Positions 20,343-36,877 of a DNA stretch of 53,881 nucleotides are shown here, piece after piece (within the stretch, counting starts at the first letter, position 1; every line of letters begins with the position of its first letter). Source of the stretch: a bacterium (GTDB lineage Bacteria > UBA4055); assembly GCA_029559475.1 (NCBI GenBank), contig JAKQBN010000062.1, positions 1 to 53,881 on the forward strand, written 5' to 3'. The notes under the pieces are model-generated. The model made no database searches. It saw only the letters and a program-made list of their open reading frames with translations, and was not told where the DNA came from. The position numbers and the translations under genes were made by a program.

Positions 20343-23261
20343 ATCGAACATTTACTTGTAGCAGATATAGGCAGTACGACAACAAAAGTTCTTCTAATTG
20401 AGAATGCCGATAATAGCTTCAGATATGTTTCTGAAGAGATTGTGCCGACAACAGTTGAGTATCCATATGAAGATGTTAACATTGCTCTAAAAAATGCCGC
20501 TAAAATAATTCAGGTTAAATCCGGCATCAGAATTCTTGACGATAAAGAAAATTTTGGTATTCCGTTGTATGCGACAAGCTCAGCTGGAGGCGGGCTTCAG
20601 ATAATGGTTTTCGGGCTGACCAAAGCTGAGACTGGTAAACTGGCGCAAATGACCGCTTACGGAGCGGGCGGTATAATATCTGAGACTTTTACTGCCGACG
20701 ATAAGAAAAGTAATTTCGAGAAAATCCGTATGATCGCTGATCAGAAACCAGATATGATACTCATGGCGGGCGGAGTTGATGGAGGCGGATTATGGGGATC
20801 TATACTCCAGTCTCAGGTTCTATTACTATCCGACCCCGAACCAAAGTTTAATAAAGGAAATAAGATCCCGTTCATATTCTGCGGTAACACTGAGTGCCGT
20901 ACTTATATTCAGCAGATGCTCGAAAATAAGTTCGATCTTTATTTTACCGACAACATTCGGCCTAACATAAACGAAATCAATTTAACTCCCGCCAAGCAGA
21001 AGATCCATGAAATATTTATTGAAAAAGTGATAGAGAATGCCCCCGGTTATGTAAAATTGAAAGAATCGGTCAGATCGGATATTCTGCCAACTCCGGCTGC
21101 AGTCGAGAAAACATTAACTTTTTTGCATAAGAAACTTAATAAAAATATTATCCTTATTGATATCGGCGGAGCCACGACAGATATTTTTACGCAGATCGGA
21201 GAAACTACGAGCCGTACGGTTTCTGCAAATATTGGATTAAGCTATTCTATTTCAAATATTCTGAAAGAGACAGGAATTGAAAAGATCAGGAAACATATCC
21301 CGGATGATATCAGTGAGAACATGATAAGAAATTATATCGGGAATAAAACGCTCAACCCGTCTTATCTGCCTGCGAGAGCCAGTGAAGCAATGATAGAATC
21401 AGCTTGTGCTGTAGAAGGAATAAAAACAGCATGGGAAAGCCATAAAAAGATGCAGTTCGAGATTTCAAATATAAATTTTATTGAAAAGCGCAGAAAGGAA
21501 ATATACTCCGTATTCGGAAAATGGGAAGAAATATTCGTAATGAATGAGGAAACGGAATTTGAAAAACGAAGATACTTTCAGATGTCCGATGTGGATATGA
21601 TAATAGGGGCAGGTGGTATTTTTGCAGCCACAGACTCAGAAGAAGAAATTATTTATTTGCTGAACGAAAGTATTTTACCTTCGGGAGTGACTAAATTCTA
21701 TATCGATAAAGGTTTCAGATCTCCGCATACAGGCATATTATCACTTATCGATGAAGACAAAGCGCTTAGATCTTACATGGAAAATTCATTAAAGGAGATC
21801 GGTTATTCAATCGTGCCTATTGGACAAATCAAAAAAAATAAGCCTGTGATCAAATTGATCGATTTGAAAACTAATGAAGTTAGAATTATAAACGGCGGTG
21901 AACATTTTTACGTAGCACAGGGCGGACATTTTGAGATAATTCTGCAAAGTGATTTTGTTCTCTCAAATCAAAATAATTCAGGGATTTACGAGATCAATAC
22001 CGATAAGCCAATTCTGTTTGACTGTAGAGGAAGAGAAAAGTTTTTTATTGATCAAAGAATTAATATTAGAGCTGAAGTTAAAAAAGAGGATCTTCAATAC
22101 GATCCATTTATCACTTCCTCATCGAACGGCAATGTGATCGAAAAAGGCCGGTTTAATTTAAACAGGTCATTAGCTTATCAGGGCAGGATAAATGTTAAAG
22201 CCGGAAAATCGGTCACGCCTGAGACGCTGATCGGTGAAAATATATACGAACCTCCAAAGATCTTCGTGATCGATCTTAAAAGGCTGATAGGTTACGGGAA
22301 AATTGAGACAAAAACTTTACTTCACGGACTGCTGATCAAAGCCGGAGACACGATATTCAAGGATCAGGCGATACTTAAGCTCAGCTTTACTCTTGGAAAG
22401 GACGATTATTTTTATTCTACCATTGGCGGTATTGTTGAAAAGGTAGATAAGACCGGGATCATACTGATTAAAGAAAGCCATGACTATGCAAATGAGCCTA
22501 TAGAAGTGAATTTGAGAAAAGAACTGAATATGCCTGATGCTGATCTGGATAGATTTCTTAAATTCAAACCCGGTGAATTTGTATCTAAAAATCATGTATT
22601 AGCATCAAGAGAAAAGAAGATAATACCGTTCAATGCTTTCGGACTTACAGTTAAGGAATATGATCTTCCGAGAAAAAAAGAGGATCTGATCATCAGAGCT
22701 CCAAAGGCAGGATATATAAGAAAATACGACAGTGCGTCAGGCAGGCTGATAATTCATTATGATTACAAAGCGAAACCGCAATATTCGCTTGTACACGGAA
22801 TAATCAGCGAATCGGATGAATTGAAAAATATAATTATATCCACCGAAGGTACTATGATCTATGGCAAAGTAGGTTTTGGAAAAGAATCTCATGGTAAGTT
22901 AAAAATAATGCATGATAAGATAGACAAATCATTCAGCGGATGCATTTTGGTTTCATTCAAAAAGTTAGGACTTGAAACTCTTCAACAAGCGAGAGAATTC
23001 AAAGTAAATGGGATATTAGCCTCCTCAGCAGACAGTCTTGATTTAAAAAGATTTGTCGGGGAGGAAATAGCTATAAATCAAACCGGAAATGAGAATATTG
23101 AATTCACTATAATTATTACGGAAGGTTTTGGCGATCTTGAAATGCCCTCGGAATTAAAAAATATTTTTATTGAATCCGAGAATAAAAACGCGGCTATGTT
23201 CGGTTCAACCAGATTGAGAACAGGCGTCATAAGACCGAAAATAATTATCAACGAAAAGTAG
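20343..23261 (+). CDS. MutL/GlmL-like ASKHA ATPase (mutase reactivase-like) with long C-terminal extension, non-canonical start
   Basis: Related to GlmL/MutL, the ATPase linked to B12-dependent glutamate/ornithine mutases. The frame is open from 20313 and encodes DIGSTTTK (residues 8-15), the ASKHA phosphate-1 loop, but no ATG, GTG or TTG occurs before GTG 20442, which would delete this motif. GGAGG ends 5 nt before an ATC at 20343, whose use gives the expected N-terminus. Phosphate-2 is DIGGATTD (about 273-280). Family blocks SSAGGGLQIMVFGL, GGVDGGG and PTPAAVEKT are present, and the MutL core ends near residue 500. About 470 further residues follow, with short segments such as RAPKAGYIRKYD and KAGDTIFKDQAILKL that recall barrel-sandwich (biotinyl/lipoyl-type) folds; their role is unknown. 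No mutase subunit is nearby. Confidence 0.75.
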   Translation: MEHLLVADIGSTTTKVLLIENADNSFRYVSEEIVPTTVEYPYEDVNIALKNAAKIIQVKSGIRILDDKENFGIPLYATSSAGGGLQIMVFGLTKAETGKLAQMTAYGAGGIISETFTADDKKSNFEKIRMIADQKPDMILMAGGVDGGGLWGSILQSQVLLLSDPEPKFNKGNKIPFIFCGNTECRTYIQQMLENKFDLYFTDNIRPNINEINLTPAKQKIHEIFIEKVIENAPGYVKLKESVRSDILPTPAAVEKTLTFLHKKLNKNIILIDIGGATTDIFTQIGETTSRTVSANIGLSYSISNILKETGIEKIRKHIPDDISENMIRNYIGNKTLNPSYLPARASEAMIESACAVEGIKTAWESHKKMQFEISNINFIEKRRKEIYSVFGKWEEIFVMNEETEFEKRRYFQMSDVDMIIGAGGIFAATDSEEEIIYLLNESILPSGVTKFYIDKGFRSPHTGILSLIDEDKALRSYMENSLKEIGYSIVPIGQIKKNKPVIKLIDLKTNEVRIINGGEHFYVAQGGHFEIILQSDFVLSNQNNSGIYEINTDKPILFDCRGREKFFIDQRINIRAEVKKEDLQYDPFITSSSNGNVIEKGRFNLNRSLAYQGRINVKAGKSVTPETLIGENIYEPPKIFVIDLKRLIGYGKIETKTLLHGLLIKAGDTIFKDQAILKLSFTLGKDDYFYSTIGGIVEKVDKTGIILIKESHDYANEPIEVNLRKELNMPDADLDRFLKFKPGEFVSKNHVLASREKKIIPFNAFGLTVKEYDLPRKKEDLIIRAPKAGYIRKYDSASGRLIIHYDYKAKPQYSLVHGIISESDELKNIIISTEGTMIYGKVGFGKESHGKLKIMHDKIDKSFSGCILVSFKKLGLETLQQAREFKVNGILASSADSLDLKRFVGEEIAINQTGNENIEFTIIITEGFGDLEMPSELKNIFIESENKNAAMFGSTRLRTGVIRPKIIINEK

Positions 23262-23604: not shown

Positions 23605-23973
23605 ATGAAAATTATAATCAAGAACTCATCACCCGACCCGATCTACAAGCAGATATCCGACCAGCTGAGAGGTCTGATCATTACGGGCGAACTGAAAAGC
23701 GGCGAAGCCCTTCCGTCGATCAGGAACCTTGCAAGGGATCTTAGGATCAGCGTGATCACAACGAAAAGAAGCTATGAGGATCTCGAGCGTGAGGGATTTC
23801 TGGAGACAGTCGGCGGGAAAGGTACTTTTGTGGCTCCGCAGAACAGAGAATTCATCAAGGAGCAGAAGCTGAAGATTATCGAAGCGAAGCTTTCTGAAGC
23901 TGTTGACAAAGCGCGGATGCTGGGATTAAAAAAGAACGAGCTTAAAGAAATGCTCGATGCTTTATATGAATAA
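23605..23973 (+). CDS. GntR-family regulator, YtrA subfamily
   Basis: 122 residues: winged helix DPIYKQISDQLRGLIITGELKSGEALPSIRNLARDLRISVITTKRSYEDLEREGFLETVGGKGTFV (about 11-76), then a short helical tail. The short tail with no FCD or UTRA domain defines the YtrA subgroup, whose members normally repress a linked ABC transporter. It is first in an operon with an ABC ATPase and two membrane proteins, and a palindrome sits in its promoter. Confidence 0.9.
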   Translation: MKIIIKNSSPDPIYKQISDQLRGLIITGELKSGEALPSIRNLARDLRISVITTKRSYEDLEREGFLETVGGKGTFVAPQNREFIKEQKLKIIEAKLSEAVDKARMLGLKKNELKEMLDALYE

Positions 23974-23996
23974 TCTATTAATTAGAGGAATTTAAA

Positions 23997-24848
23997 ATGA
24001 CTAAAATATTGGAAATAAACGGCGTATCAAAGGAGTTCAAAGGTTTTAAGCTCGACAATATCACATTCGGGCTTGAGAAAGGATATATTATGGGATTTAT
24101 CGGGCCGAACGGGGCAGGGAAGACCACCACGATCAGGCTGATCATGAATTTATTAAAGAAAGATTCCGGAGACATAAAAATATTCGGAATGGACAATGTA
24201 ACTGATGAAGTGCCGATCAAGGACAGGATAGGTTTCGTTTATGAGGAAAACTATTTTTACGAGCATCTGACGGTAAACAAAATGAAAGAGATAATCGCGC
24301 CGTTCTACAGCAAGTGGGATGATAAAAAATTTAACGAATACTGTGAAAAGTTCGAGCTTACGCCGAAAAAGAAGATCAGAGACCTTTCAAAAGGCACGAA
24401 AATGAAATTTTCTCTCGCAATAGCGCTTTCGCACAACGCCAAATTTCTCATTCTCGACGAACCGACTTCAGGGCTCGATCCAGTGTTCAGGGACAAGCTC
24501 ATGGATATATTAAGGGAAGAGATCCAGGATGAGAACAAATCTATTCTGTTTTCAACCCACATTACTTCAGACCTTGAGAAGATAGCCGATTATATCACAT
24601 TCATAAATAACGGCAGGATAGTTTTTTCAAATCAGAAAGACACGATTTTGGAGAATTATAAAATAATCAAAGGCGACACAGGCATACTGACCGATGAGAT
24701 AAGAAATGAACTATTAGGCATTAAAGAGAACAGATTCGGGTTTGAAGCTTTATGCGATTATGAAAAAGAAAGCCTGTTCTCGAAATTTGAAGTCGTGACG
24801 GAAAAACCCAGTCTTGAGCAGATGATGGTCTATCTGTCCAATAAATAA
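23997..24848 (+). CDS. ABC transporter ATP-binding protein (YtrB-like)
   Basis: 283 residues. Walker A GPNGAGKTT (about 35-43), signature LSKGTKMKFSLA, Walker B FLILDEPTSGLDP and the H-loop histidine in STHITSDLE. The Q-loop glutamine is replaced by glutamate in GFVYEENYFYEHLT, as is common in YtrB/BceA-like exporter ATPases. It lies 23 bp after the GntR gene and before two membrane proteins, so it forms an exporter of unknown substrate; similar systems handle cell-wall antibiotics or signalling lipids. Confidence 0.88.
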   Translation: MTKILEINGVSKEFKGFKLDNITFGLEKGYIMGFIGPNGAGKTTTIRLIMNLLKKDSGDIKIFGMDNVTDEVPIKDRIGFVYEENYFYEHLTVNKMKEIIAPFYSKWDDKKFNEYCEKFELTPKKKIRDLSKGTKMKFSLAIALSHNAKFLILDEPTSGLDPVFRDKLMDILREEIQDENKSILFSTHITSDLEKIADYITFINNGRIVFSNQKDTILENYKIIKGDTGILTDEIRNELLGIKENRFGFEALCDYEKESLFSKFEVVTEKPSLEQMMVYLSNK

Positions 24849-24863
24849 GCGGAGGAAAGTAAA

Positions 24864-25949
24864 ATGAAAAATTTAATCATGGCAGATTTTAAGGTTCTCG
24901 GGCACAGGATATGGACTATACCTCTGGGAGTTACAATTCTTGTGATTTTACTATGTTTGATAATTCGGAATGTACCAAATGATTTTCGTTACTTCTTAAT
25001 AACGCTGCTGACACCCGGCCTTCTGATATTTGAGTTATTAAGAGAAGAATATAAAAAGAAGTCAGACAGACTGATTTTGACTATGCCTGTAAGTAAGAGT
25101 ATTTATGTTATATCCAAATACTCCACTTTTTTGATTCTTGGAATGACGGCTATTCCCGCAGCCTTACTGACTGATCTCATAATGAATTTTTTAGGGAACG
25201 AACCAGAGATCGGCTATTTAACTAATATCTTATCTGAAATCCCCAAAATTCTTCTGATGATCTTTTTTGTAATATATTTTATTTATCCACTTTATTTAAT
25301 TTCAAAGAAATTTGCAGTAACAGCGGAATTAGCGGTTTTATGGATAAATTTCGAGCTTATTGATAGCAGGTTCCGTTATTTTGATCTGTCAGCATTCGAT
25401 AGAAATATTGGGAGTTTTTCTATCAAAGTAATATTATTATTATGTGCAGCCGGAGTAGTACATTTTTCGATCAGATTATTCTTCAAAAAAATCAAAACTG
25501 AACAAATAATGATAATATGGTACCTTGTTTTTATATACCTGACACTTATATTCATATCAGCCTTAACATTAAATTTATATTATTCATGGAGCTACATAAA
25601 AGAGGCAGATATTATTCATAAATGGTCTATCAAAGATTACGAATTGTTAGTAAGATCATTAAAAATGTATATATTGATTATTTTAACAGCTCTTACAGCT
25701 TGTATATCATCGCTTATCTTTCTATATAAAAAAGCTAAAGAAAAATATTATTTCTACAGTTTTGTTTATTTATTAATACCTGTTATATTATCCATGCTTT
25801 CAATGGCTTTACATATGATTACTTCATCGTTCGTCAAGGCTAATATGGATTTTCAATCGTTTGAAATCCTATTTATATTTATAGGTACAATTTACTTTTC
25901 AATGAAAGCCTCGATCTATCTTCTAAAAAATAACAGGACTTTAAAATGA
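24864..25949 (+). CDS. ABC transporter membrane subunit
   Basis: 361 residues with about eight to ten hydrophobic helices and no soluble domain; the ribosome site GCGGAGG lies 8-10 bp before the ATG. DRLILTMPVSKSIYVISKY near residue 75 resembles the 'LPVSRxxIVxxK' segment of ABC-2 exporter permeases. The gene looks more A+T rich than its neighbours, but no insertion boundary is visible. Overlaps the next gene by 4 bp. Forms the exporter with the YtrB-like ATPase. Confidence 0.75.
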   Translation: MKNLIMADFKVLGHRIWTIPLGVTILVILLCLIIRNVPNDFRYFLITLLTPGLLIFELLREEYKKKSDRLILTMPVSKSIYVISKYSTFLILGMTAIPAALLTDLIMNFLGNEPEIGYLTNILSEIPKILLMIFFVIYFIYPLYLISKKFAVTAELAVLWINFELIDSRFRYFDLSAFDRNIGSFSIKVILLLCAAGVVHFSIRLFFKKIKTEQIMIIWYLVFIYLTLIFISALTLNLYYSWSYIKEADIIHKWSIKDYELLVRSLKMYILIILTALTACISSLIFLYKKAKEKYYFYSFVYLLIPVILSMLSMALHMITSSFVKANMDFQSFEILFIFIGTIYFSMKASIYLLKNNRTLK

Positions 25950-26623
25950 AGCACATTATAAAATCAAATTTATACCTGATATTCTGGGCGGATAAATACT
26001 TCGGGGCTGCAGTGTTAGCTATGCTAGTCGCTCCCGTGATGATCCTGCAGGGACATTTTTCAGCCTATGCGATCGGACTCCCGCTATCAGTATTTTTTTC
26101 TCTTCTCAAGCTGAATTCGACAGTGATGTCAGGCAAGTACGAGCGCATCAACGTAACAGTTCCCGTTGAAAAGAAAGATATAGTGAACGCAAGATTTCTT
26201 ACTGCAGCTATAATTACAGACCTGTTTACGATCGCTGCGATAGGAGTTTCCGTCTGGGCGAACATTAAAGAAGTGATCTACGGATCGAAAAGAGCGCATG
26301 ATGCCTTGCCCGAGATTGCGCTGAACATATCTACGCCGGTAAGCGGTATAATTGCAGGGCTGATCTTCGGGATTCTTCTTTCGGTAATAATATCAGCAGC
26401 CTATATTTATTGCTGGTCAAAATACGAGCATGACAGTTACAATCTGTATTTTACGATGACAGTTCTAATAATCGTGTTTGCATTAAAACCGCTGCTACAA
26501 GGATTTACTGATTCAGGGATCAGCATGATCTGGATAAATCTGATAATGTTATTAATAGCTTTGCCGGCTGTATTTATCTCTCTTTCAAAGTCAATGGAAG
26601 TGTTCGGGAAAAGAGAGTTTTAA
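25946..26623 (+). CDS. ABC-2 type membrane subunit
   Basis: 225 residues with about six hydrophobic helices. KYERINVTVPVEKKDIVNARFL is the typical segment of the ABC-2 membrane family (ABC2_membrane_5) between helices. Its ATG overlaps the stop of the previous gene (ATGA), showing translational coupling. Second permease half of the GntR-controlled exporter. Confidence 0.78.
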   Translation: MKHIIKSNLYLIFWADKYFGAAVLAMLVAPVMILQGHFSAYAIGLPLSVFFSLLKLNSTVMSGKYERINVTVPVEKKDIVNARFLTAAIITDLFTIAAIGVSVWANIKEVIYGSKRAHDALPEIALNISTPVSGIIAGLIFGILLSVIISAAYIYCWSKYEHDSYNLYFTMTVLIIVFALKPLLQGFTDSGISMIWINLIMLLIALPAVFISLSKSMEVFGKREF

Positions 26624-26646
26624 GAATAACGTGTATTTATGATCTT

Positions 26647-27051
26647 CTATTTCAGGATGTGTTCAAAGAACTCTGCAGGGCTGATAATCTTTATTCCTTT
26701 GAATTCAGGCACTGGAAATTGCTTTAGATTCCCTGTAACCAGATACAGTGCGCCGGAGCTTATGGCGGCTTCAAGAAATTTTAAATCTTCAGGGTCAGGG
26801 ATTGATAAATCCAAAGGCAGAGGTGATGTATGTTGTCCGTTAACCTTTATCTGTTCGATTAAGTCCGTTATATTCTGTTGGGCAATGTGAAATTTCGGCC
26901 TAGACATTACGTTTTCATATTCTGCAATGATTCTGTAATCGTAGGCCAATTCAATATAACCGGAAGCTACCAATCTGACAATAAATCCCGGTATTCCATT
27001 CGGATTTAAAAGCCCTGATATAAGAACATTCGTATCGAGAACTATCTTCAT
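26647..27051 (-). CDS. PIN-domain ribonuclease toxin
   Basis: 134 residues. Acidic PIN residues are visible: Asp6 in VLDTNVL, Glu44 in IIAEYENV, and Asp86/Asp89 in PDPEDLKFLEAA. The last position, often Asp in TGD, is Asn108 in VTGNLKQF. It belongs to the COG1569-type toxin group, which cleaves RNA with Mg2+. Its start overlaps the stop of the antitoxin gene by 4 bp. It is convergent with the ABC exporter. Confidence 0.88.
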   Translation of the reverse strand: MKIVLDTNVLISGLLNPNGIPGFIVRLVASGYIELAYDYRIIAEYENVMSRPKFHIAQQNITDLIEQIKVNGQHTSPLPLDLSIPDPEDLKFLEAAISSGALYLVTGNLKQFPVPEFKGIKIISPAEFFEHILK

Positions 27052-27329
27052 CGGCTTTCTCTTGCAGCTTTTATTTCAGCATCGATCTCTTTATCTGTCA
27101 ATTTATTCAAACCACTTTTAGCTGATTGCTCCTGAATTGACATAACTGCCTGCTCAGCTTTCACTCTTCTGATTATATCCAGAGATCTTTCATAATTCTC
27201 AGGATCTGTTGAAAGCATGATCGCTACAGGTTTTCCGTTCAGGGTTATAGTCATAGTATTTTCGTCCGAAAGCTCTTTCCAAACATCTTTCGGTTTGGTT
27301 CTAAAATCTCTGACAGCGACAAACTTCAT
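27048..27329 (-). CDS. Phd/YefM-type antitoxin
   Basis: 93 residues. The N-terminal fold is Phd/YefM-like: VAVRDFRTKPKDVWKELSDENTMTITLNGKPVAIMLS (about 4-40). The C-terminal half is charged and helical, as expected for the toxin-neutralising tail. AAGGAG precedes the ATG. First gene of the operon with the PIN toxin, under the promoter at 27356-27384, which it should autoregulate. Confidence 0.85.
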   Translation of the reverse strand: MKFVAVRDFRTKPKDVWKELSDENTMTITLNGKPVAIMLSTDPENYERSLDIIRRVKAEQAVMSIQEQSAKSGLNKLTDKEIDAEIKAARESR

Positions 27330-27355
27330 ATCTGACTCCTTTTCTACTTAATTCT

Positions 27356-27384
27356 AATATACACAAATGTCACACGATTGTCAA
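27356..27384 (-). promoter_or_regulatory. sigma-70 promoter of the toxin-antitoxin operon
   Basis: On the minus strand consensus TTGACA (27384-27379) and TATATT (27361-27356), 17-bp spacer. A repeated TGACA half-site (TGACAN6TGTGACA-like) inside the spacer could be an antitoxin-binding site. Confidence 0.7.
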
Positions 27385-27423
27385 CAGTTGAAATTAAACA
27401 ACGGTTTTATGTATAATTTATTC

Positions 27424-27452
27424 TTGCATAAATCTAAATTTAGGCTTAACAT
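27424..27452 (+). promoter_or_regulatory. sigma-70 promoter of the beta-propeller lipoprotein array
   Basis: TTGCAT (27424-27429) and TAACAT (27447-27452), 17-bp spacer, 45 nt before the ATG at 27498. No terminator is visible until after the array, so all five genes may share this transcript. Confidence 0.5.
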
Positions 27453-27497
27453 TAGGTGGCAGTAACATATAATTTATTTTAAATGTGGAGAATGAGG

Positions 27498-28607
27498 ATG
27501 AAAGTTCTGAAGTATTTACTAATATTGACGGTATTTATTTTGGCTGTGAGCTGCACAAAGAAAGTAGCTACCTATGAACAAGTTGTTGAGAACGGGATCA
27601 AAATCACGAAGAATACAGGCGTTCCGGCTGATTCGACTTTCAAGATCGAGCTGAAGGAAGTGGCTTTTATTGAGAATGATTCAGAAGCTGATCCTGAAAG
27701 ATATTTGAATCAGCCTACGATCGTAGATTTTGATGAGGCAGGAAATATTTATATATTTGATCGAACCAAATATATGATATTCAAATACGATCAAAAAGGC
27801 AGTTTTATAATGTCCTTCGGACAACAGGGTCAAGGCCCCGGTGAGTTCATTCAACCAGGAACGATTATAGTAAGAGAAGATACTTTGTATGTAACTGAGA
27901 TAAGAAGTTACAAGATATCAAAATTCAATTTAGATGGTGAATTTTTGGGAGATAAAAAATTTCCTGATATTCATAACTTTCCGATGCTTCCATCAAAATT
28001 CGGGGAAAACTATATTACTGTTTTTGGTGCAACAAAAAGCATTGTTACTGATGAAGGCAAACGAACTAATATTAAAGAAACTTCTTTATATGATCAAAAC
28101 TTTGATTTCATCAAGAATCTTCATATCCTTGAATATGAACCTCCTGCGGAAGGTGCAGAGTTCGATCCAACAGAGAAAGGAATACAAGCTGCCGCATCTG
28201 ATATAAATGCCTATGTTTATGAGCATTCGAAAACTCAGTATAAAATAGATGTTTACGATATTAACGGAAATAAAGTTAGAGAAATAAGAAAATATTATTC
28301 AAGAATAAAAACACCTTTAGATTTTCATAAAAAATATGAAGAAATCTGGGCAAAACAGGGTAGGAAGTATAAATCTGAATTCAGGAACTCCATTTATCAA
28401 CTTCGAACAGATAAATATAACAGATTGTGGGTATCGGGTCCTACAAACAAAGAAGAAGAAGGGTACTATTATGATATCTTCGAAAACGATATTTTCATTA
28501 ATCGAGTTAAGCCGGTAATGGAAGAAGGATATGGGTTGTTATTTGTAGCTGATAAAATTATCGGTTATAATTCGAGTGAAAATAAAATCAAGATCTATGA
28601 ATATTGA
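27498..28607 (+). CDS. 6-bladed beta-propeller lipoprotein (array copy 1)
   Basis: The start is placed at the ATG preceded by GGAG at 7 nt; an earlier in-frame ATG at 27483 lies before that site. Lipobox LAVSC. The next about 45 residues (KKVATYEQ...KITKNTGVPADS...KIELKEV) are almost the same as in copies 2 and 3. The body has six propeller-type blades with the family motif GQGPGEF (about residue 110) and IYIFD, and ends in KIYEY. It fits the '6-bladed beta-propeller' (DUF5128) family of FCB surface lipoproteins, whose ligands are unknown. Confidence 0.8.
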   Translation: MKVLKYLLILTVFILAVSCTKKVATYEQVVENGIKITKNTGVPADSTFKIELKEVAFIENDSEADPERYLNQPTIVDFDEAGNIYIFDRTKYMIFKYDQKGSFIMSFGQQGQGPGEFIQPGTIIVREDTLYVTEIRSYKISKFNLDGEFLGDKKFPDIHNFPMLPSKFGENYITVFGATKSIVTDEGKRTNIKETSLYDQNFDFIKNLHILEYEPPAEGAEFDPTEKGIQAAASDINAYVYEHSKTQYKIDVYDINGNKVREIRKYYSRIKTPLDFHKKYEEIWAKQGRKYKSEFRNSIYQLRTDKYNRLWVSGPTNKEEEGYYYDIFENDIFINRVKPVMEEGYGLLFVADKIIGYNSSENKIKIYEY

Positions 28608-28645
28608 ATTTAAAATAAGGCTATGTGTAAAATAATGGAGTATTC

Positions 28646-29554
28646 ATGAGATTATTTCAATTAACAGTATTACAGGTCATCTTCTACATGATCATAGGAT
28701 GCTGTGCGCCTTCAAAGAATATGATTTTTGTTAAGGGCGGTGAATTCGTTTCAAATTATAAAGAAAAAAATAAGCCTGCTCCGGAAAAAATCAAAATCGA
28801 AGATTATTATATAGGGATGTATGAAGTTACTCAAGCACAATGGATGACTGTTATGGAAAAGAATCCGAGTTATTTCATAGGAGATAGTTTGCCAGTTGAG
28901 AATGTAAACTGGTATAACGCAGTAATATTTTGTAACAAACTAAGCGAAAAAGAGGGTTTAGATAAATGCTATGATCTTGTTGAAAATGTTACTGATTCGA
29001 ATAATTTTAAAATCGATTTATCAATAAAATATCAGGTAACCTGGAATCCGCAAAAAAACGGCTACCGTCTGCCGACCGAAGCCGAATGGGAATATGCATC
29101 CCGTGGCGGAAGAAATAGCAAAGGATTTAGATACAGCGGTAGTGATGACATCGATGAAGTAGGCTGGCATATTAGAAATTCGGGCGATAAAGTGTTGACT
29201 GACTACATTCATGCAGCTGAGTTCGACAGGGATAGTATAGAAATGTATCATAATTCTACAAAAGTTGTAGGCAGGAAGAAGCCTAACGAGTTAGGTATTT
29301 ATGATATGACAGGGAATGTATATGAATACTGCTGGGACTTTAAGGATTACATTTATACTAATTATCTGGTAGAGCCCGGAGACCCGATATTCGGGAGTGA
29401 AATATTAGTGCATCTGCGAACTGCGATAGGCGGAAGCTGGTTGTATGATATTGGAGAAAGTACTGTTACCGACAGAATGTTCATCGCTCCGTATGGCTGC
29501 TCTAGAGATAATGGACTGCGAGTCGTAAGGAATAAAAAATGCAGATTTTTTTGA
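28646..29554 (+). CDS. SUMF1/formylglycine-enzyme-fold lipoprotein (array copy 1)
   Basis: 302 residues with a lipoprotein signal (Cys in IIGCC). The SUMF1 fold is clear: MIFVKGGEF, YYIGMYEVTQAQW, VNWYNAVIFCNKLS, YRLPTEAEWEYASRGG, IYDMTGNVYEYCWD, GGSW and DNGLRVVRNK. The two cysteines that bind copper in true formylglycine-generating enzymes should lie just after GGSW, but the segment there (LYDIGESTVTDRMF) has none. It is therefore probably a binding or structural member of the fold, not an active enzyme. Starts 38 bp after propeller copy 1. Confidence 0.82.
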   Translation: MRLFQLTVLQVIFYMIIGCCAPSKNMIFVKGGEFVSNYKEKNKPAPEKIKIEDYYIGMYEVTQAQWMTVMEKNPSYFIGDSLPVENVNWYNAVIFCNKLSEKEGLDKCYDLVENVTDSNNFKIDLSIKYQVTWNPQKNGYRLPTEAEWEYASRGGRNSKGFRYSGSDDIDEVGWHIRNSGDKVLTDYIHAAEFDRDSIEMYHNSTKVVGRKKPNELGIYDMTGNVYEYCWDFKDYIYTNYLVEPGDPIFGSEILVHLRTAIGGSWLYDIGESTVTDRMFIAPYGCSRDNGLRVVRNKKCRFF

Positions 29555-29582
29555 ATTTAAATAAGATCTTCATGGAGGAATA

Positions 29583-30680
29583 ATGAGATTTTTAAAAGTA
29601 TTAGTTTTCACAGTCGTATTAGCCGTACTTTTCAGCTGCACTAAAAAAGTGGCAACATACGAACAAACTATCGAGAACGGGATCAAGATCACAAAAAACA
29701 CAGGTGTGCCTGCGGATTCGACCTTCAAGATCGAGCTGAAGGAAGTAGGGTTTATTGACAACGAAAATGAGACTGATTCATCGAAATATCTGAGTTCGGC
29801 AGATTATTTTGACTATGACGAGCATGGTAACCTTTACATTCTTGACCAAAGTAAGAATAAAATAAACAAGTATGACAAAGACTGTAAATTTCTATTGTCA
29901 TTCGGCAGGGACGGAGCAGGTCCGGGCGAATTTCATTTTCCGGGCTATTTCAATATAAGGAAAGATACTCTTTTTCTTTCAAACTGGACTTCTCTAAAAA
30001 TCATAAAGTTCGACCTTAACGGAAATTATCTAAGCGATAAAGTGATAACAGATTTGTATAAATTCCCTGCATATCCAAAGAAATTCGGAAGTAATTATAT
30101 CTACAAAGCCACCACAAACAAATTCGACAGCGAAGGTAAAATGTTCTTTGTAGATGAAGTAACTTTATACAATGAGAAATTTGATTTTGTCAAATATTTC
30201 AGCATGATAGAATACGAGAGTAAAGAAAATGTTGATCATGACCCGACTGAATTCGGCACCAAGGTCGCTTTCTCTGACAGCATTTTATATTTATATAAAA
30301 ACTCAAAGGACGTTTACAAGATAGATGTTCTTAATAATGAAGGCATTAAAATAAGAGAGATCAGGAAGAATTTTATAAGAACAAAAGCGAGCGAAAAAGA
30401 TATATTAAAATATGAAGAATTTAACAAAAAACGTGGAACGAAATACAAAAGGGAGTTCAAGAATTCAATATCTAACCTATATGTCGATAAATACGGCCGG
30501 CTGTGGGTGGCTTCTATTGATAATTCAGAAGACAATTTATGCTTCGATATTTTCAAAGACGATATATTTATAAATAAAGTGTTATTGGATATTGATAAGG
30601 GCTGGAGCTATGATTTCGTTGCTGATAAAATTATTTCAGTCAATAGTGAGAATAATAACATAAAAATATATGAATATTAA
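29583..30680 (+). CDS. 6-bladed beta-propeller lipoprotein (array copy 2)
   Basis: 365 residues; ATGGAGGAATA precedes the ATG. Lipobox LFSC. N-terminal about 50 residues match copies 1 and 3 nearly exactly; the propeller body then diverges. GAGPGEF and the KIYEY end are kept. The upstream intergenic sequence and signal-peptide codons are almost identical in DNA to those of copy 3. Confidence 0.8.
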   Translation: MRFLKVLVFTVVLAVLFSCTKKVATYEQTIENGIKITKNTGVPADSTFKIELKEVGFIDNENETDSSKYLSSADYFDYDEHGNLYILDQSKNKINKYDKDCKFLLSFGRDGAGPGEFHFPGYFNIRKDTLFLSNWTSLKIIKFDLNGNYLSDKVITDLYKFPAYPKKFGSNYIYKATTNKFDSEGKMFFVDEVTLYNEKFDFVKYFSMIEYESKENVDHDPTEFGTKVAFSDSILYLYKNSKDVYKIDVLNNEGIKIREIRKNFIRTKASEKDILKYEEFNKKRGTKYKREFKNSISNLYVDKYGRLWVASIDNSEDNLCFDIFKDDIFINKVLLDIDKGWSYDFVADKIISVNSENNNIKIYEY

Positions 30681-30710
30681 AAAGACCGGATTTAGTCAAT
30701 AGGAGAAAGT

Positions 30711-31619
30711 ATGAGATTTATTGGATTGACGGTTGTTTCTTTTGCACTTGTTTTGATCATCGGATGCTGTGCGCCTTCAAAGAATATGATTTTTGTTAAG
30801 GGCGGTGAATTCGTTTCAAATTATAAAGAAAAAAATAAGCCGGCTCCAGAAAAAATAAAAATCGAAGATTATTATATAGGGATGTATGAAGTTACTCAGG
30901 CACAGTGGATGACTGTTATGGAAAAGAACCCGAGCAGTTTCATTGGAGATAGTTTGCCCGTTGATAATGTAAACTGGTATAACGCAGTAATATTTTGTAA
31001 CAAATTAAGCGAAATGGAAGGTTTAGAGAAATGCTATGATCTTGTCGAAACGGTTCAGGATACGAATAACTTTAAGATCGATGAAGGAGTAAAATATCTG
31101 GTAACATGGAACCAGCAAAAAAACGGCTACCGTCTGCCGACCGAAGCCGAATGGGAATATGCATCCCGCGGCGGAAGAAATAGCAAAGGATTTAGATACA
31201 GCGGCAGTGATGACATCGATGAAGTAGGCTGGCATATTAGAAATTCGGGAGACAAAGTTTTAACTGATTACAATCATGCATCTGAGTTCGACAGGGATAG
31301 TATAGAAATGTATCATAATTCTACAAAAGTTGTAGGCAGGAAGAAGCCTAACGAGTTAGGTATTTATGATATGACAGGGAATGTTTATGAATATTGTTGG
31401 GACTTTAAGGATTATATATATACTAATTATCTGGTAGAACCCGGAGACCCGATATTCGGGAGTGAAATATTAGTGCATCTTCGAACTGCTATAGGCGGAA
31501 GCTGGTTGTATGATATTGGAGAAAGTACGGTTACCGACAGAATGTTCATCGCTCCGTATGGTTTCTCTAGAGATAATGGACTGCGAGTCGTAAGGAATAA
31601 AAAATGCAGATTTTTTTAA
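30711..31619 (+). CDS. SUMF1/formylglycine-enzyme-fold lipoprotein (array copy 2)
   Basis: 302 residues, the same length as the copy at 28646 and near-identical from residue 20 to 100 and from about 140 to the end. Differences cluster at the signal peptide and around residues 101-136 (NKLSEMEGLEKCYDLVETVQDTNN versus NKLSEKEGLDKCYDLVENVTDSNN in the first copy), which should form an exposed loop. The catalytic cysteines after GGSW are missing here too. Confidence 0.82.
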   Translation: MRFIGLTVVSFALVLIIGCCAPSKNMIFVKGGEFVSNYKEKNKPAPEKIKIEDYYIGMYEVTQAQWMTVMEKNPSSFIGDSLPVDNVNWYNAVIFCNKLSEMEGLEKCYDLVETVQDTNNFKIDEGVKYLVTWNQQKNGYRLPTEAEWEYASRGGRNSKGFRYSGSDDIDEVGWHIRNSGDKVLTDYNHASEFDRDSIEMYHNSTKVVGRKKPNELGIYDMTGNVYEYCWDFKDYIYTNYLVEPGDPIFGSEILVHLRTAIGGSWLYDIGESTVTDRMFIAPYGFSRDNGLRVVRNKKCRFF

Positions 31620-31647
31620 ATTTAAATAAGATCTTCATGGAGGAATA

Positions 31648-32697
31648 ATGAGATTTTTAAAAGTATTAGTTTTCACAGTCGTATTAGCCGTATTTTTCAG
31701 CTGCTCTAAAAAAGTGGCAACATACGAACAGACTATCGAAAACGGGATCAGGATCACTAAGAACACAGGTGTACCGGCTGATTCAGCTTTTAAGATCGAA
31801 CTGAAAGAAGTCGGGTTTATTGATATGGAGAACGAGACTGATTCAAACCGTTACATCAGCCTGATATTCAATTTTGATATTGATGATGACGATAATCTAT
31901 ATATAATGGATATGGCGAAGCGCGGAATTCATAAATACGATGAGAACTGCAGTTTTGTAAAGGCATTCGGCAGAATGGGGAACGGCCCCGGAGAATTCGA
32001 ATATCCCGGAACTATAAATGTCAGAGGAGATTCTATCTTTGTACCGGATATGTCTACACTTCAGATAATTAAATATGATACAGATGGTAATTTTATCACA
32101 AACAAAAGACTGGATGATATAACGAAGTTCCCCAGATATCCAAAAAAGTTCGGCGACAAATATATAAGTCAATCGAGAGATATCTATCCCGATGAAGAAA
32201 AGGGAGGATTGGTTATGCATGAGGAAATCAGCCTTTATGACAGAAATTTTAATTTTATCAGGCAACTTTATGAGAACGAATATCATGAGGAAGGTGCCGA
32301 TGCTAACGAATTATCAGAAAAAGGGCTTGTTACTGCTTTTAACGACAGTCTGCTTTATGTAAGTGAAAATAGCATAGACAAATATCAGGTAAATATTTTT
32401 GACAGCCAAGGTACTAAGATCGGAGAAATCAGGAAAAATTATAGAAGAATAAAAGACAGTGCCGGGGAATATGCAAATTCAGTTATTGGTATGCAGTCGG
32501 ATAAATACGGCAGGCTTTGGGTCAGCGTATATGATGACGAAAATCCTAAGAAGATCATATATGATGTGTTCGAAAATGATATTTTCATCAATAGAATGAA
32601 TCTGGATGTGGGGGAAGGCTATTTCAAATATTTTGTTGTGGATAAAATCGTAGCTGTTAACAGGGAAAATAATAATATCAAAGTGTATGAATATTGA
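31648..32697 (+). CDS. 6-bladed beta-propeller lipoprotein (array copy 3)
   Basis: 349 residues. Shares the first about 50 residues with copy 2 (lipobox FFSC), then diverges; GNGPGEF and the KVYEY end are kept. It is the last gene of the array; no third SUMF1 gene follows, the next gene being a restriction-modification enzyme 77 bp downstream. Confidence 0.8.
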   Translation: MRFLKVLVFTVVLAVFFSCSKKVATYEQTIENGIRITKNTGVPADSAFKIELKEVGFIDMENETDSNRYISLIFNFDIDDDDNLYIMDMAKRGIHKYDENCSFVKAFGRMGNGPGEFEYPGTINVRGDSIFVPDMSTLQIIKYDTDGNFITNKRLDDITKFPRYPKKFGDKYISQSRDIYPDEEKGGLVMHEEISLYDRNFNFIRQLYENEYHEEGADANELSEKGLVTAFNDSLLYVSENSIDKYQVNIFDSQGTKIGEIRKNYRRIKDSAGEYANSVIGMQSDKYGRLWVSVYDDENPKKIIYDVFENDIFINRMNLDVGEGYFKYFVVDKIVAVNRENNNIKVYEY

Positions 32698-32773
32698 TAT
32701 CAGCCGAATTATATTGTTTTTGATTCTTAAAAGGATTAAATTATTCACTTCAACCAAATAACCGGACAGAATT

Positions 32774-35665
32774 ATGGCTTTGAGCTGGAATGAAATAAAA
32801 GAACGCGCTTCGCATTTTTCAAAAGAGTGGGCAAATGCTTTTAATGAAGATGCTGAGGCTAAGACATTTCTGTTTGAATTCTTCAATGTGTTCGGGATCA
32901 GCCAGCGGAAAGTTTCAAATTTTGAGCACAGGGTGAAAAAGCTCGACGATCACGAAGGCTATATTGATCTGTTCTGGCCTCAAACGATCCTTATCGAAAT
33001 GAAAAGCAGAGGAAAGGACCTTGACAAAGCCTATTCTCAGGCAAGAAATTATTTGAAAGCGATCAGGCAGGAAGAACTGCCGAAATTCATTCTTGTTTCG
33101 GACTTTGAGAACTTCAGGCTATATGATCTTGAGGAAGATAATCTGATAGAATTTAAGCTTTCTAATCTTGTTGATAATGTTCAACATTTCGGGTATCTGC
33201 TTGGCTATCAGAAGAAGATCTATAAGGAACAGGATCCGGCAAATATTAAAGCTGCAGAGTTGATGGGCAGGCTTCATGACAGACTCAAAGATATCGGATA
33301 TTCAGGACATCCGCTTGAAGTCTATCTGGTGCGTATTCTGTTTTGCCTTTTCTCTGATGATACGACCATATTCAATAAGCGCCAGTTTCAGGAATATCTT
33401 GAACAGCGGACTTATGATGACGGAAGCGATCTTGCTGCAAAACTGCAGGAGCTTTTTCAGGTTCTGAACACGCCTGTTGATAAAAGATTCAGAAATTTAG
33501 ATGAACAACTTACCGAATTCCCTTATGTGAACGGGAAATTATTTGAGGAGATACTTCCTGTCGCCAGTTTTGATTCCAAAATGAGAAAAGCGCTGTTGGA
33601 CTGCTGTAATATTGACTGGAGCAAGATATCACCTGCCATATTCGGTTCGATGTTCCAGAGCGTAATGAATCCGACTGAGCGAAGGAACATAGGAGCTCAC
33701 TACACGAGCGAAACCAACATCCTAAAGCTGATCAAGCCTCTCTTTCTTGACGATCTCTGGGCTGAATTTGAAGTCGTAAAAGGCAACAAAAATAAACTTT
33801 CAGAATTCCATAAGAAATTAAGCACTTTAAAATTTCTTGACCCTGCCTGCGGATGTGGAAACTTTCTCGTCATTACTTATCGCGAATTGAGGCTGCTTGA
33901 GATCGAAATATTAAGAATATTATACAAAACTGATCAGGTGCTCGATGTAAGAGACATTATCTGGCTCGATGTTGATCAGTTTTACGGGATCGAGATCGAA
34001 GAATTCCCTGCCAGGATCGCAGAAGTCGCGATGTGGCTGATTGACCATCAGATGAACATGCAGATCAGTAATGAATTCGGGCAGTATTTTATCCGTCTGC
34101 CGCTTAAGAAGTCGGCAATGATCGTAAACGGGAATGCTTTAAGAATAGACTGGCAGAGCCTGTTAAATCCTGTAAATACTGTTGATATTGTAGCGAAACA
34201 CGCAAATGTTTATATGGTCAGCGAACCGGAACCGGTTAAATACGGAACCGTAAACATTGAAGCAGAATCCATCAAGATACACAGAGGCAGAAAACCTCAG
34301 CCTGAATCTCAGGTAAGGTTTGATTACATACTGGGCAATCCGCCGTTTGTGGGCAAGAAGGAACAGAGCGAAAATCAAAAATCTGATATGGAATTAATCT
34401 GGAATGGTGTTAAAGGATCAGGAGTATTGGACTATGTAAGCTGTTGGTATCTTAAGGCAGCTCAATATATACAAAACACAAAAGTAAAAGTATCATTTGT
34501 TTCTACGAATTCAATCACACAAGGTGAGCAAGTTGGGATTTTATGGAAATGGCTATTTAAAAATTATAGTATAAAAATCCATTTTGCACACAGGACTTTC
34601 AAATGGACAAACGAAGCACGTGGAAAAGCTGCAGTTCATGTTGTGATAATCGGATTTGCGAATTTTGAAAGTGTAATAAAGAAAATTTTTGAATATACAG
34701 ATATAAAAGGGGAACCGCACGCAATAAAAGCAAATAATATAAATCCTTTTCTTGTTGAAGGCAAAGATATTACTGTTGAAAGTAGAAACCATCCTATCTG
34801 CCAAGTACCTGAAATAAACTATGGTAGTTTTGCTTTAGATGATGGCAATTACACACTAACTGAAGATGATAAGGCTGAACTAATTCAAGAAGAAAGTAAT
34901 ATCGGACAATTTATTCGTCCATTTATTGGTGGTAAAGAATTATTGTACTCAACAAAACGATATTGTTTATGGCTAATAAATGCTGACCCTTCAGTTGTTT
35001 TTAAAAATAAAAAAGTCAGATTAAAAGTTGAGAAAGTAAAATTATGGCGATCTAGTAGTAAAAGAAAAACTACAATAAAACTTTCTGAAACTCCAACTCT
35101 TTTTGCTGAAATTCGTCAACCGAAAACAAGATATATTGCTTTTCCAACACTTTCTTCAGAAAATAGAAAATATATACCTATTGATTTCCTTGAGCCCGAT
35201 GTAATCGCTTCTAACCAGATATATGTAATTCCGGACACTAACTTATTCCATTTTGGGATTTTGACATCGACCATGCACATGACTTGGATAAGAAATATAT
35301 GTGGTAAGCTTGAAAGTCGTTACAGGTATTCAGCAAGTATTGTTTACAACAACTTCCCTTGGCCTGAAAATGTAACAAAAGTTCAGGAGATTTCTATTGA
35401 AAAGGCAGCTCAAAATGTTCTAAATACAAGAGCTTTATTTCCAAGCAGTTCACTGGCTGAGTTATACGATCCTTTATCTATGCCGCCTGAACTGGTAAAA
35501 GCTCACAATGAGCTCGATAAATCTGTTGATCTTGCATATCGTTCTCATCCGTTCGTAAGCGAAGCTAATCGAATGGAATTCTTATTTGAGCTTTATGAAA
35601 AATATACAGCTGATCTTTTTACTAAAGAGAAAGAAAAGACAAAGAAAACAAAAAAAGATACATAA
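32774..35665 (+). CDS. MmeI-like type IIL restriction-modification enzyme
   Basis: One polypeptide with nuclease, adenine-methyltransferase and target-recognition parts (963 residues; MmeI is about 919). The PD-(D/E)xK nuclease shows Asp65, Glu75 and Lys77 (YIDLFW then IEMK), the same D-x9-E-x-K spacing as MmeI. A helical linker follows. SAM motif I is FLDPACGCGNF (about 354-364), motif IV is NPPF (522-525), so it is a gamma-class N6-adenine methyltransferase. Residues about 640-850 contain the likely target-recognition domain (IGQFIRPFIGGKELLYS), encoded by visibly more A+T-rich DNA, as often for exchangeable recognition parts. The nuclease residues look intact. Specificity cannot be read from sequence. 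Confidence 0.88.
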   Translation: MALSWNEIKERASHFSKEWANAFNEDAEAKTFLFEFFNVFGISQRKVSNFEHRVKKLDDHEGYIDLFWPQTILIEMKSRGKDLDKAYSQARNYLKAIRQEELPKFILVSDFENFRLYDLEEDNLIEFKLSNLVDNVQHFGYLLGYQKKIYKEQDPANIKAAELMGRLHDRLKDIGYSGHPLEVYLVRILFCLFSDDTTIFNKRQFQEYLEQRTYDDGSDLAAKLQELFQVLNTPVDKRFRNLDEQLTEFPYVNGKLFEEILPVASFDSKMRKALLDCCNIDWSKISPAIFGSMFQSVMNPTERRNIGAHYTSETNILKLIKPLFLDDLWAEFEVVKGNKNKLSEFHKKLSTLKFLDPACGCGNFLVITYRELRLLEIEILRILYKTDQVLDVRDIIWLDVDQFYGIEIEEFPARIAEVAMWLIDHQMNMQISNEFGQYFIRLPLKKSAMIVNGNALRIDWQSLLNPVNTVDIVAKHANVYMVSEPEPVKYGTVNIEAESIKIHRGRKPQPESQVRFDYILGNPPFVGKKEQSENQKSDMELIWNGVKGSGVLDYVSCWYLKAAQYIQNTKVKVSFVSTNSITQGEQVGILWKWLFKNYSIKIHFAHRTFKWTNEARGKAAVHVVIIGFANFESVIKKIFEYTDIKGEPHAIKANNINPFLVEGKDITVESRNHPICQVPEINYGSFALDDGNYTLTEDDKAELIQEESNIGQFIRPFIGGKELLYSTKRYCLWLINADPSVVFKNKKVRLKVEKVKLWRSSSKRKTTIKLSETPTLFAEIRQPKTRYIAFPTLSSENRKYIPIDFLEPDVIASNQIYVIPDTNLFHFGILTSTMHMTWIRNICGKLESRYRYSASIVYNNFPWPENVTKVQEISIEKAAQNVLNTRALFPSSSLAELYDPLSMPPELVKAHNELDKSVDLAYRSHPFVSEANRMEFLFELYEKYTADLFTKEKEKTKKTKKDT

Positions 35666-35668
35666 TCT

Positions 35669-36877
35669 ATGTTTTCATCTATAAGAAAAAATTACGAATT
35701 TCATAAAAAGAATTTCTACCGCGGGAACGATATTTACTGTCCGTTTTGCTCAGGCACATATAAAGCTCAAAAGTTCAAATTCACGAAAGAGCTGAGCGAG
35801 CTATGCCCAGTATGCGGTTCGACTTTGCAGGAAAGGACAGTTTTACTTTTTCTGCAGGCTAAGACTGAAATACTGCCGGGCGAGCCTAAAATACTTGTTG
35901 TTTCTGAAGAGGGGAAAATTCCAGAATATTTTAGAAATTTCCCAAATGCGGAAGTAAAGATATACACAGAGACAGGCGATTTTACGATAAGGGACAATAC
36001 GCTTAAGGATAAGTATGAAAGTTCATCGTATGATCTGATCGTGTGCAATTACATTCTGGAAAAGCTTCCAAATTACATTCCTGTTTTAAAAGAGTTCGCG
36101 AGGATATTAAAAGATGACGGTATTATGCTTCTTCAGGCTAACATTGACAATTCAAAAGAAACTACAGCGGAATTTCCGGTCGCTTCATATAAAGAAAGAC
36201 TGCTGCTCTACGGAATACCGGGCAATCACAGAAGGTTCGGAAAAGATTATCAGTCTCTGATAAAGTCGAACGGACTTAAAGTCTCGAAGCTGAAATTTAC
36301 TGAAGGATTCGATGAACTACCGCCGCATTCGTTCAATAAAGACGAAGTATTTTATATAGCGTATAAAAGCGAACATCCTGTATTGTTCGATAATATGGAT
36401 GACCTTGAGGCTGAAATGTCTGAACAGAGATCGAATGTCGAAGCTAAATGGTATGGAAGATACGTTTATTATATTTTTTTCCAAGTGCCTGAAAAAGTAA
36501 AAGGATCAATTAATGATTATCTGGGCAGCGTGGATGAAAAATCAGCGAACAAGAGCAGCTGGCGGTATTTTATTTATATGTTGTTCATGGCGACAATTTC
36601 CACAATTGTAGGCACAGCGGTTTATTCATTTCCTCTGTTAGTAAGTTTTCCGGGCAATAATTTTGTATTTCTTTTTATATCGATGCCCGCTTTCCTCTTC
36701 TGCCTTGCTTTAGCCTTTTTATGCACCGGAGGCTATTTCTTTGTTAATTACGAGGCAGGAATTATCAGAAGGACTTTAATGGGCTTATATGCCGCTACTC
36801 TTTTAATGACATCTATGAGTTTTGCGATAATGATCTGGAAATGGTCAATAATGACAATAGTCAATAGCGGGATGTAA
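35669..36877 (+). CDS. zinc-ribbon SAM methyltransferase with C-terminal membrane helices
   Basis: 402 residues. N-terminal zinc ribbon CPFC (24-27) and CPVC (46-49). A methyltransferase-type domain spans about 68-230: the strand ILVVSEEGK stands in place of the glycine-rich SAM motif, then YDLIVCNYILEKLPNYIPVLKEFARILKDDGIMLLQ and the family segment RLLLYGIPGNHRRFGKDY. The degenerate motif I questions normal SAM binding. Three to four hydrophobic helices (about 293-395) form the C-terminus, so it is membrane-anchored. It starts 3 bp after the restriction-modification gene. A role in modification or envelope glycan methylation is undecided. Confidence 0.7.
   Translation: MFSSIRKNYEFHKKNFYRGNDIYCPFCSGTYKAQKFKFTKELSELCPVCGSTLQERTVLLFLQAKTEILPGEPKILVVSEEGKIPEYFRNFPNAEVKIYTETGDFTIRDNTLKDKYESSSYDLIVCNYILEKLPNYIPVLKEFARILKDDGIMLLQANIDNSKETTAEFPVASYKERLLLYGIPGNHRRFGKDYQSLIKSNGLKVSKLKFTEGFDELPPHSFNKDEVFYIAYKSEHPVLFDNMDDLEAEMSEQRSNVEAKWYGRYVYYIFFQVPEKVKGSINDYLGSVDEKSANKSSWRYFIYMLFMATISTIVGTAVYSFPLLVSFPGNNFVFLFISMPAFLFCLALAFLCTGGYFFVNYEAGIIRRTLMGLYAATLLMTSMSFAIMIWKWSIMTIVNSGM

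Follow-up and report, generated by a model that had tools for sequence, protein, structure and literature searches.

The window analysed here, 53,881 nucleotides in full, is one contig of a 2.28-Mb draft bacterial genome that is 92% complete (labelled G000). Between positions 27498 and 32697 it harbors five lipoprotein genes, all on the forward strand, in the order that had originally been predicted for this DNA, with propellers alternating with SUMF1-fold proteins. They are designated P1 (27498-28607; 369 amino acids, in a frame that is open from 27483), S1 (28646-29554; 302 amino acids), P2 (29583-30680; 365 amino acids), S2 (30711-31619) and P3 (31648-32697; 349 amino acids). The gaps between them measure 28-38 bp, and the P1-S1 intergenic region (28608-28645) is found at the same position in two congeners with 79-87% identity. 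Each of the five genes starts with a lipobox signal peptide; a surface location of the products is putative. The signal-peptide module of P1 (MKVLKYLLILTVFILAVSC; 27498-27551) is akin to a MKVLRYLVILS module of relatives. Upstream of the array are a PIN/Phd toxin-antitoxin pair and an operon encoding a GntR regulator, an ABC ATPase and two ABC-2 permeases (23605-26623), genes that also neighbor propeller arrays in several relatives. Downstream lie an MmeI-type restriction-modification gene with Pfam MmeI domains (32774-35665) and a gene for a methyltransferase-like membrane protein (MT; 35669-36877), which belongs to the same rearranging locus in relatives, followed by a fourth and distant propeller lipoprotein, P4 (37012-38172), that is 31% identical to P2. 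These flanking features are likewise on the forward strand, and the array sits on a contig with chromosomal-type neighbors.

Profile searches assign three of the propellers to PF17170 (DUF5128), a six-bladed propeller family, with scores of 50.1 bits for P1, 41.3 for P3 and 34.6 for P4 against a cut-off of 22.9. P2 obtains no match to this model; it shares 52-53% of its residues with P1 and P3, and AlphaFold2 confidently models it as a propeller (mean pLDDT 90) whose fold relatives in the PDB are NHL and Bacteroides propellers. The latter, BF0058 (4raa) and BVU_1028 (3s9j), resemble it in fold with VIA-align Z scores of 16-17 at a sequence identity of just 8-14%. A literature search found no paper on DUF5128. 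The SUMF1 proteins score far above the cut-off of 23.3 bits for the FGE-sulfatase family PF03781 (E about 1e-37; S1 127.8 bits and E 7e-37, S2 128.7 bits), and among solved structures the best relative of S1 is the variable protein TvpA (2y3c, E 1e-31), which has an FGE fold of the C-type-lectin type. A catalytic formylglycine-generating enzyme needs two active-site cysteines between the GGSW motif and the C-terminal GxR motif. Although the Pfam domain is held in common, S1 has only one cysteine in this region (YGC) and S2 has none (YGF), so that the catalytic pair is absent from both. The T9SS proteins GldK/PorK and GldJ are FGE-fold lipoproteins like S1 and S2, but the scores obtained against their NCBIfam equivalog models, 49.8 bits against a cut-off of 350 for GldK and 24.6 against 458 for GldJ, are far too low for such an assignment. 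A structure model of the SUMF1 protein reached a pLDDT of 53.5 and was set aside, and a scan of IMG/VR with the same protein gave distant matches alone, at 29-35% identity, with no functional clue.

The original prediction described units repeating at exactly 2065 bp, with some 50 near-identical codons at the start of the propeller genes and sharply divergent bodies behind them. The period is exact from S1 to S2 and from P2 to P3; from P1 to P2 it is 2085 bp. The identical DNA forms a single tract, whose two forward-strand copies (28689-29665 and 30754-31730) run from SUMF1 codon 15 to codon 27 of the next propeller, and which starts not at the propeller but within the SUMF1 gene. In the +2065 register, identity jumps at S codon 15 (28689), lies at 78-100% per 50-bp bin across S1 with a mean of about 93%, and reaches 98-100% at the right end of the tract. 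It covers all of the intergenic DNA (28/28), stays at 98% to P2 codon 27, drops to 83% up to codon 57 and is 57% thereafter. S1 and S2 are 92% identical overall, yet their first 14 codons share only 48% of their DNA; those of S1 resemble the codons of congeners, from which it would follow that the derived form is S2 or at least the 5' end of S2.

Synonymous differences between P2 and P3 number 0/18 in codons 1-27, 13/20 in codons 28-57 and 141/161 thereafter, giving a synonymous difference (pS) of 0.00 to the left of the breakpoint and 0.88 to the right (permutation p = 0.0005). The counts place the end of DNA identity at about codon 27-36. Near-identity of DNA is therefore shorter than had been claimed, comprising the 28-bp intergenic region and codons 1-27, and the remaining likeness of the leaders is amino-acid conservation: over codons 28-57 the proteins agree at 93% of positions, with a pS of 0.63. 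This conserved segment is all that P1 has in common with the other leaders (codons 19-57, 92% of amino acids, pS 0.69); its upstream DNA is unlike theirs, and the signal peptides of P1 and P2 share 33% of their residues. The sharp divergence of the bodies, at 45-53% identity with saturated synonymous sites, was borne out. The near-identity in the window is one duplicated or converted tract that has the SUMF1 gene at its center and tails off into the propeller leader. The exchange of bodies behind a kept leader, as first proposed, is only faintly suggested by the window, for which one segmental duplication of S1 and the start of P2 would suffice; the support for it comes mainly from other genomes.

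The comparison set comprises 12 further genomes of the same family (Candidatus Delongbacteria), 13 with G000, and relatives are filed in collections under Candidatus Delongbacteria, UBA4055, UBA12480, SZUA-455, STF1_163 and other names. All 13 are draft metagenome assemblies, and the comparison is between species rather than strains of one species. G001 and G002 are congeners of G000, whereas G005 (UBA4055) and G009 each belong to another genus. Papers that name the Delongbacteria mention them once or twice apiece. Propellers are present in 12 of the 12 family genomes, often clustered, with 4-19 matches each at E 1e-20, and at that threshold none was found in the searched genomes outside those 12. 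As a measure of background divergence, the synonymous difference in rpoB is 0.71 between G000 and its two congeners, 0.76 between G000 and G005, 0.43 between G001 and G002, and 0.61 between G005 and G009.

Against this background, leaders and bodies have different histories. The body of P1 differs from that of G005 gene 5748 at a pS of 0.23 (41/180), while codons 1-58 of the same pair reach 0.72-0.88 and the likeness stops at the stop codon; other genes of the locus show values of 0.76 (MmeI) and 0.83 (methyltransferase) between G000 and G005. An even closer body is shared by G009 gene 8723 and G005 gene 4631 (pS 0.09), in which the flanks and the last few codons are unalike. Both cassettes have a sharp edge close to the stop codon, and their flanks are at 27-56% identity. 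The closest body to that of P3 is found in G009, at 69%, behind a different leader. The SUMF1 genes display the reverse arrangement, for in G001 and G002 the leader differs at a pS of 0.09 (1/11) and the body at 0.86 (120/139), with the intergenic DNA ahead of the gene 87% identical. The G001 propeller is 92% identical in DNA to P1, and the S gene behind it just 60%. Three neighboring G009 genes (3039, 6324 and 8723) have one ribosome-binding-site-like stretch and 13 initial codons in common on bodies that are 23-25% identical. Breakpoint permutation gave p values of 0.0005-0.01 for five pairs (P2/P3, P1/G005, the S genes of G001 and G002, and two G009 pairs), on leader segments that contain just 10-18 synonymous sites. 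The left breakpoint of S1/S2 fell short of significance when synonymous sites alone were counted (p 0.09), and control pairs were partly non-flat, with G009/G005 breaking at a 3' end that is itself a cassette edge. The pair of P1 and the G002 propeller was dropped as proof because its synonymous breakpoint gave p 0.48.

The shared modules are confined to such arrays. The 31-nt DNA module encoding MKVLRYLVILS has six matches in the 13 whole genomes (none for the reversed control), and all six are the starts of array propeller genes in G002, G005 and G009. Of the 13 genomes, only the three of this genus contain the P1-S1 intergenic sequence, each in a single copy, and the P2/P3 leader occurs twice, both times in the array described here. 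Among 8853 propeller pairs with bodies less than 45% identical, the 5' DNA identity averages 0.43 (sd 0.056), and a tail at 0.68-0.97 is limited to a few array groups. Across the family, the nearest leader lies in the same genome in 22 of 135 cases and the nearest body in 18, with 11 expected by chance; as this is barely above chance, the claim is restricted to particular arrays. Most signal peptides in the family, by these comparisons, just evolve fast, and leader sharing is limited to a few arrays.

The main rival to exchange is plain tandem duplication, in which purifying selection holds the leaders and the bodies evolve fast. It would be served by the ordinary divergence of signal peptides across the family and by codons 28-57 of P2 and P3, which are kept at the protein level alone. 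However, the P1 body is far closer to its counterpart in another genus than rpoB is, with a saturated leader, and the S leader is near-identical in two congeners whose S bodies are saturated at synonymous sites. Protein-level selection does not produce such synonymous-site contrasts, by which this reading is contradicted, and we regard it as improbable. The exchanged bodies have a pN/pS of about 0.2, indicative of purifying selection, so their diversity arises by replacement and not by rapid amino-acid change.

The arrangement of the locus varies from species to species. In G000 the order is P1 S1 P2 S2 P3 MmeI MT P4; in G005 two propellers part MmeI from the next gene (MmeI P P MT). G002 has GntR-ABC-P-S-broken P-P on one contig and P-MT-P4 on another, G001 has P S P4, G009 has six propellers and then S, and G012 has GntR-ABC followed by six propellers. 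Fixed copy number and order with uniform divergence along the genes, the outcome named in advance as speaking against exchange, is contradicted between species. Chimeric contigs that fuse leaders to the wrong bodies would be one source of such mosaics, given that all of the genomes are drafts, that assemblers fail at repeats and that some of the contigs concerned are short, at 4.7 and 10.5 kb. Yet the junctions are in frame with lipoboxes intact, different projects produced assemblies with the same pattern, there is a 7% difference between S1 and S2, and the G005 contig extends over 65.6 kb, which together make an assembly or binning artefact very unlikely. The probability is slighter still for programmed switching by a site-specific recombinase, as in a shufflon or invertible array, even though gene order varies among species and short conserved modules flank the bodies: no inverted repeats are present in 24000-36000, the three integrases of the genome found in a search for tyrosine recombinases are all on other contigs, and the genes all point in one direction, each with its own start and with breakpoints at different codons. 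A diversity-generating retroelement with the SUMF1 proteins as its variable proteins, suggested by the likeness of S1 to TvpA, can be given hardly any weight, as PF00078 reverse transcriptase had 0 matches in the 92%-complete assembly, where controls were detected, and S1 and S2 hardly differ toward the C terminus, which is the place of the variable region in retroelement proteins.

The explanation that we favor, with considerable confidence, is that this is a chromosomal array in which conserved 5' modules and the conserved 3' end provide the homology for recombination that exchanges and duplicates the bodies of envelope lipoproteins. The 5' module would consist of the ribosome site and signal peptide and, in the propellers, also of the conserved N-terminal segment. 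Bodies travel as gene-sized cassettes between species and genera, and one SUMF1 gene has been duplicated or converted together with the beginning of the propeller that follows it. At the level of sequence, the different ancestry of leader and body, in propellers and SUMF1 genes and both within and between species, is established by synonymous sites, as are transfer between genera and duplication of the tract. The agent is probably ordinary homologous recombination, by gene conversion, unequal crossing-over and uptake of foreign DNA, since searches for tyrosine recombinases, inverted repeats and reverse transcriptase turned up no dedicated agent nearby.

The roles of the products are less certain. 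They may be lipid-anchored ligand-binding proteins, consisting of NHL-like propellers and a non-catalytic FGE/C-type-lectin fold. As both folds are typical binders of ligands or proteins, and the S proteins are without the catalytic cysteine pair, the function is best guessed to be that of a binding repertoire on the envelope, with about even chances of being right. Swapping the binding bodies while the signals for expression and export stay fixed would equip every species with a distinct repertoire directed at a ligand, partner or phage that varies. The two-part propeller-SUMF1 complex that had also been proposed is weakly indicated by gene adjacency, because an S-type SUMF1 gene follows a propeller in only four of the 13 family genomes (all three of the genus and one more); the other nine have propellers, and this SUMF1 protein is absent from them at E 1e-60. 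It is a rather unlikely extension that propeller and lectin-fold lipoproteins form one envelope recognition complex, both halves of which are swapped independently between fixed export leaders to yield a combinatorial receptor repertoire across genera of this uncultivated phylum.

Host-associated pathogens are known to exchange bodies behind anchored leaders in their lipoprotein arrays, for which immune evasion is the usual explanation. The occurrence of this architecture in an uncultivated phylum that is known from metagenomes, with two unrelated folds and across genera, would suggest that pressure from phage, partners or ligands can drive such exchange too, and the array offers a defined locus that time series of metagenomes could track. 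The FGE-type C-type-lectin fold is an established scaffold for variable binding proteins, including TvpA and Mtd (PMC5006420). The domain is common to S1, the Treponema denticola protein TvpA and further variable proteins of retroelements, whereas no reverse transcriptase was found in the present assembly and whole bodies are replaced here. The closest parallel in mechanism is the erp family of Borrelia, in which one promoter, leader and localization sequence is joined to bodies of many origins (PMC10016077). The array works like erp, and we do not claim kinship with the Erp family: near-identical 5' leader DNA is found on bodies of different ancestry, just as the erp genes (OspE/OspF-related, with an upstream homology box) carry one leader lineage on differing and often recombining bodies of lipoproteins encoded in small operons. 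However, erp resides on cp32 prophage plasmids of a host-associated spirochete, whereas the present genes lie on a chromosomal-type contig of uncultivated Delongbacteria, where propeller and FGE folds are involved and a second type of gene follows the same pattern.

A short GntR regulator, an ABC ATPase and ABC-2 permeases occupy positions 23605-26623 of the window, and this set is found upstream of the propeller arrays in G000 (the genome of the window), its congener G002, G010 and G012. Among the congeners, synonymous divergence of the GntR gene is 0.14-0.23, well under that of rpoB (0.71). The window array also adjoins a minus-strand toxin-antitoxin pair of the PIN/Phd type (26647-27329), near relatives of which flank the arrays of G001 and G005 as well. 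In G005, a serpin-family lipoprotein gene (L058:8151-9449) adjoins the propeller locus. The window also encodes a 939-amino-acid protein (20442-23261) whose first half carries a MutL/GlmL-type domain and whose long C-terminal part matches no Pfam family.

Away from the window array, at least six larger FGE-sulfatase-domain proteins, with frames of 471-653 amino acids, are clustered on another G000 contig (C47:82511-94446; parts in loci L006, L008 and L019-L023). Behind a SUMF1 gene on contig 180 of G002, two open frames (L055:16453-17521) represent one split propeller gene, apparently a decaying array copy.

In second propeller arrays of two genera, L063 (G002 C138) and L064 (G009 C206), a KKELNYTV leader type is common to members whose bodies are 26-39% identical. 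These arrays are likely a second instance of leaders being kept while bodies are exchanged.
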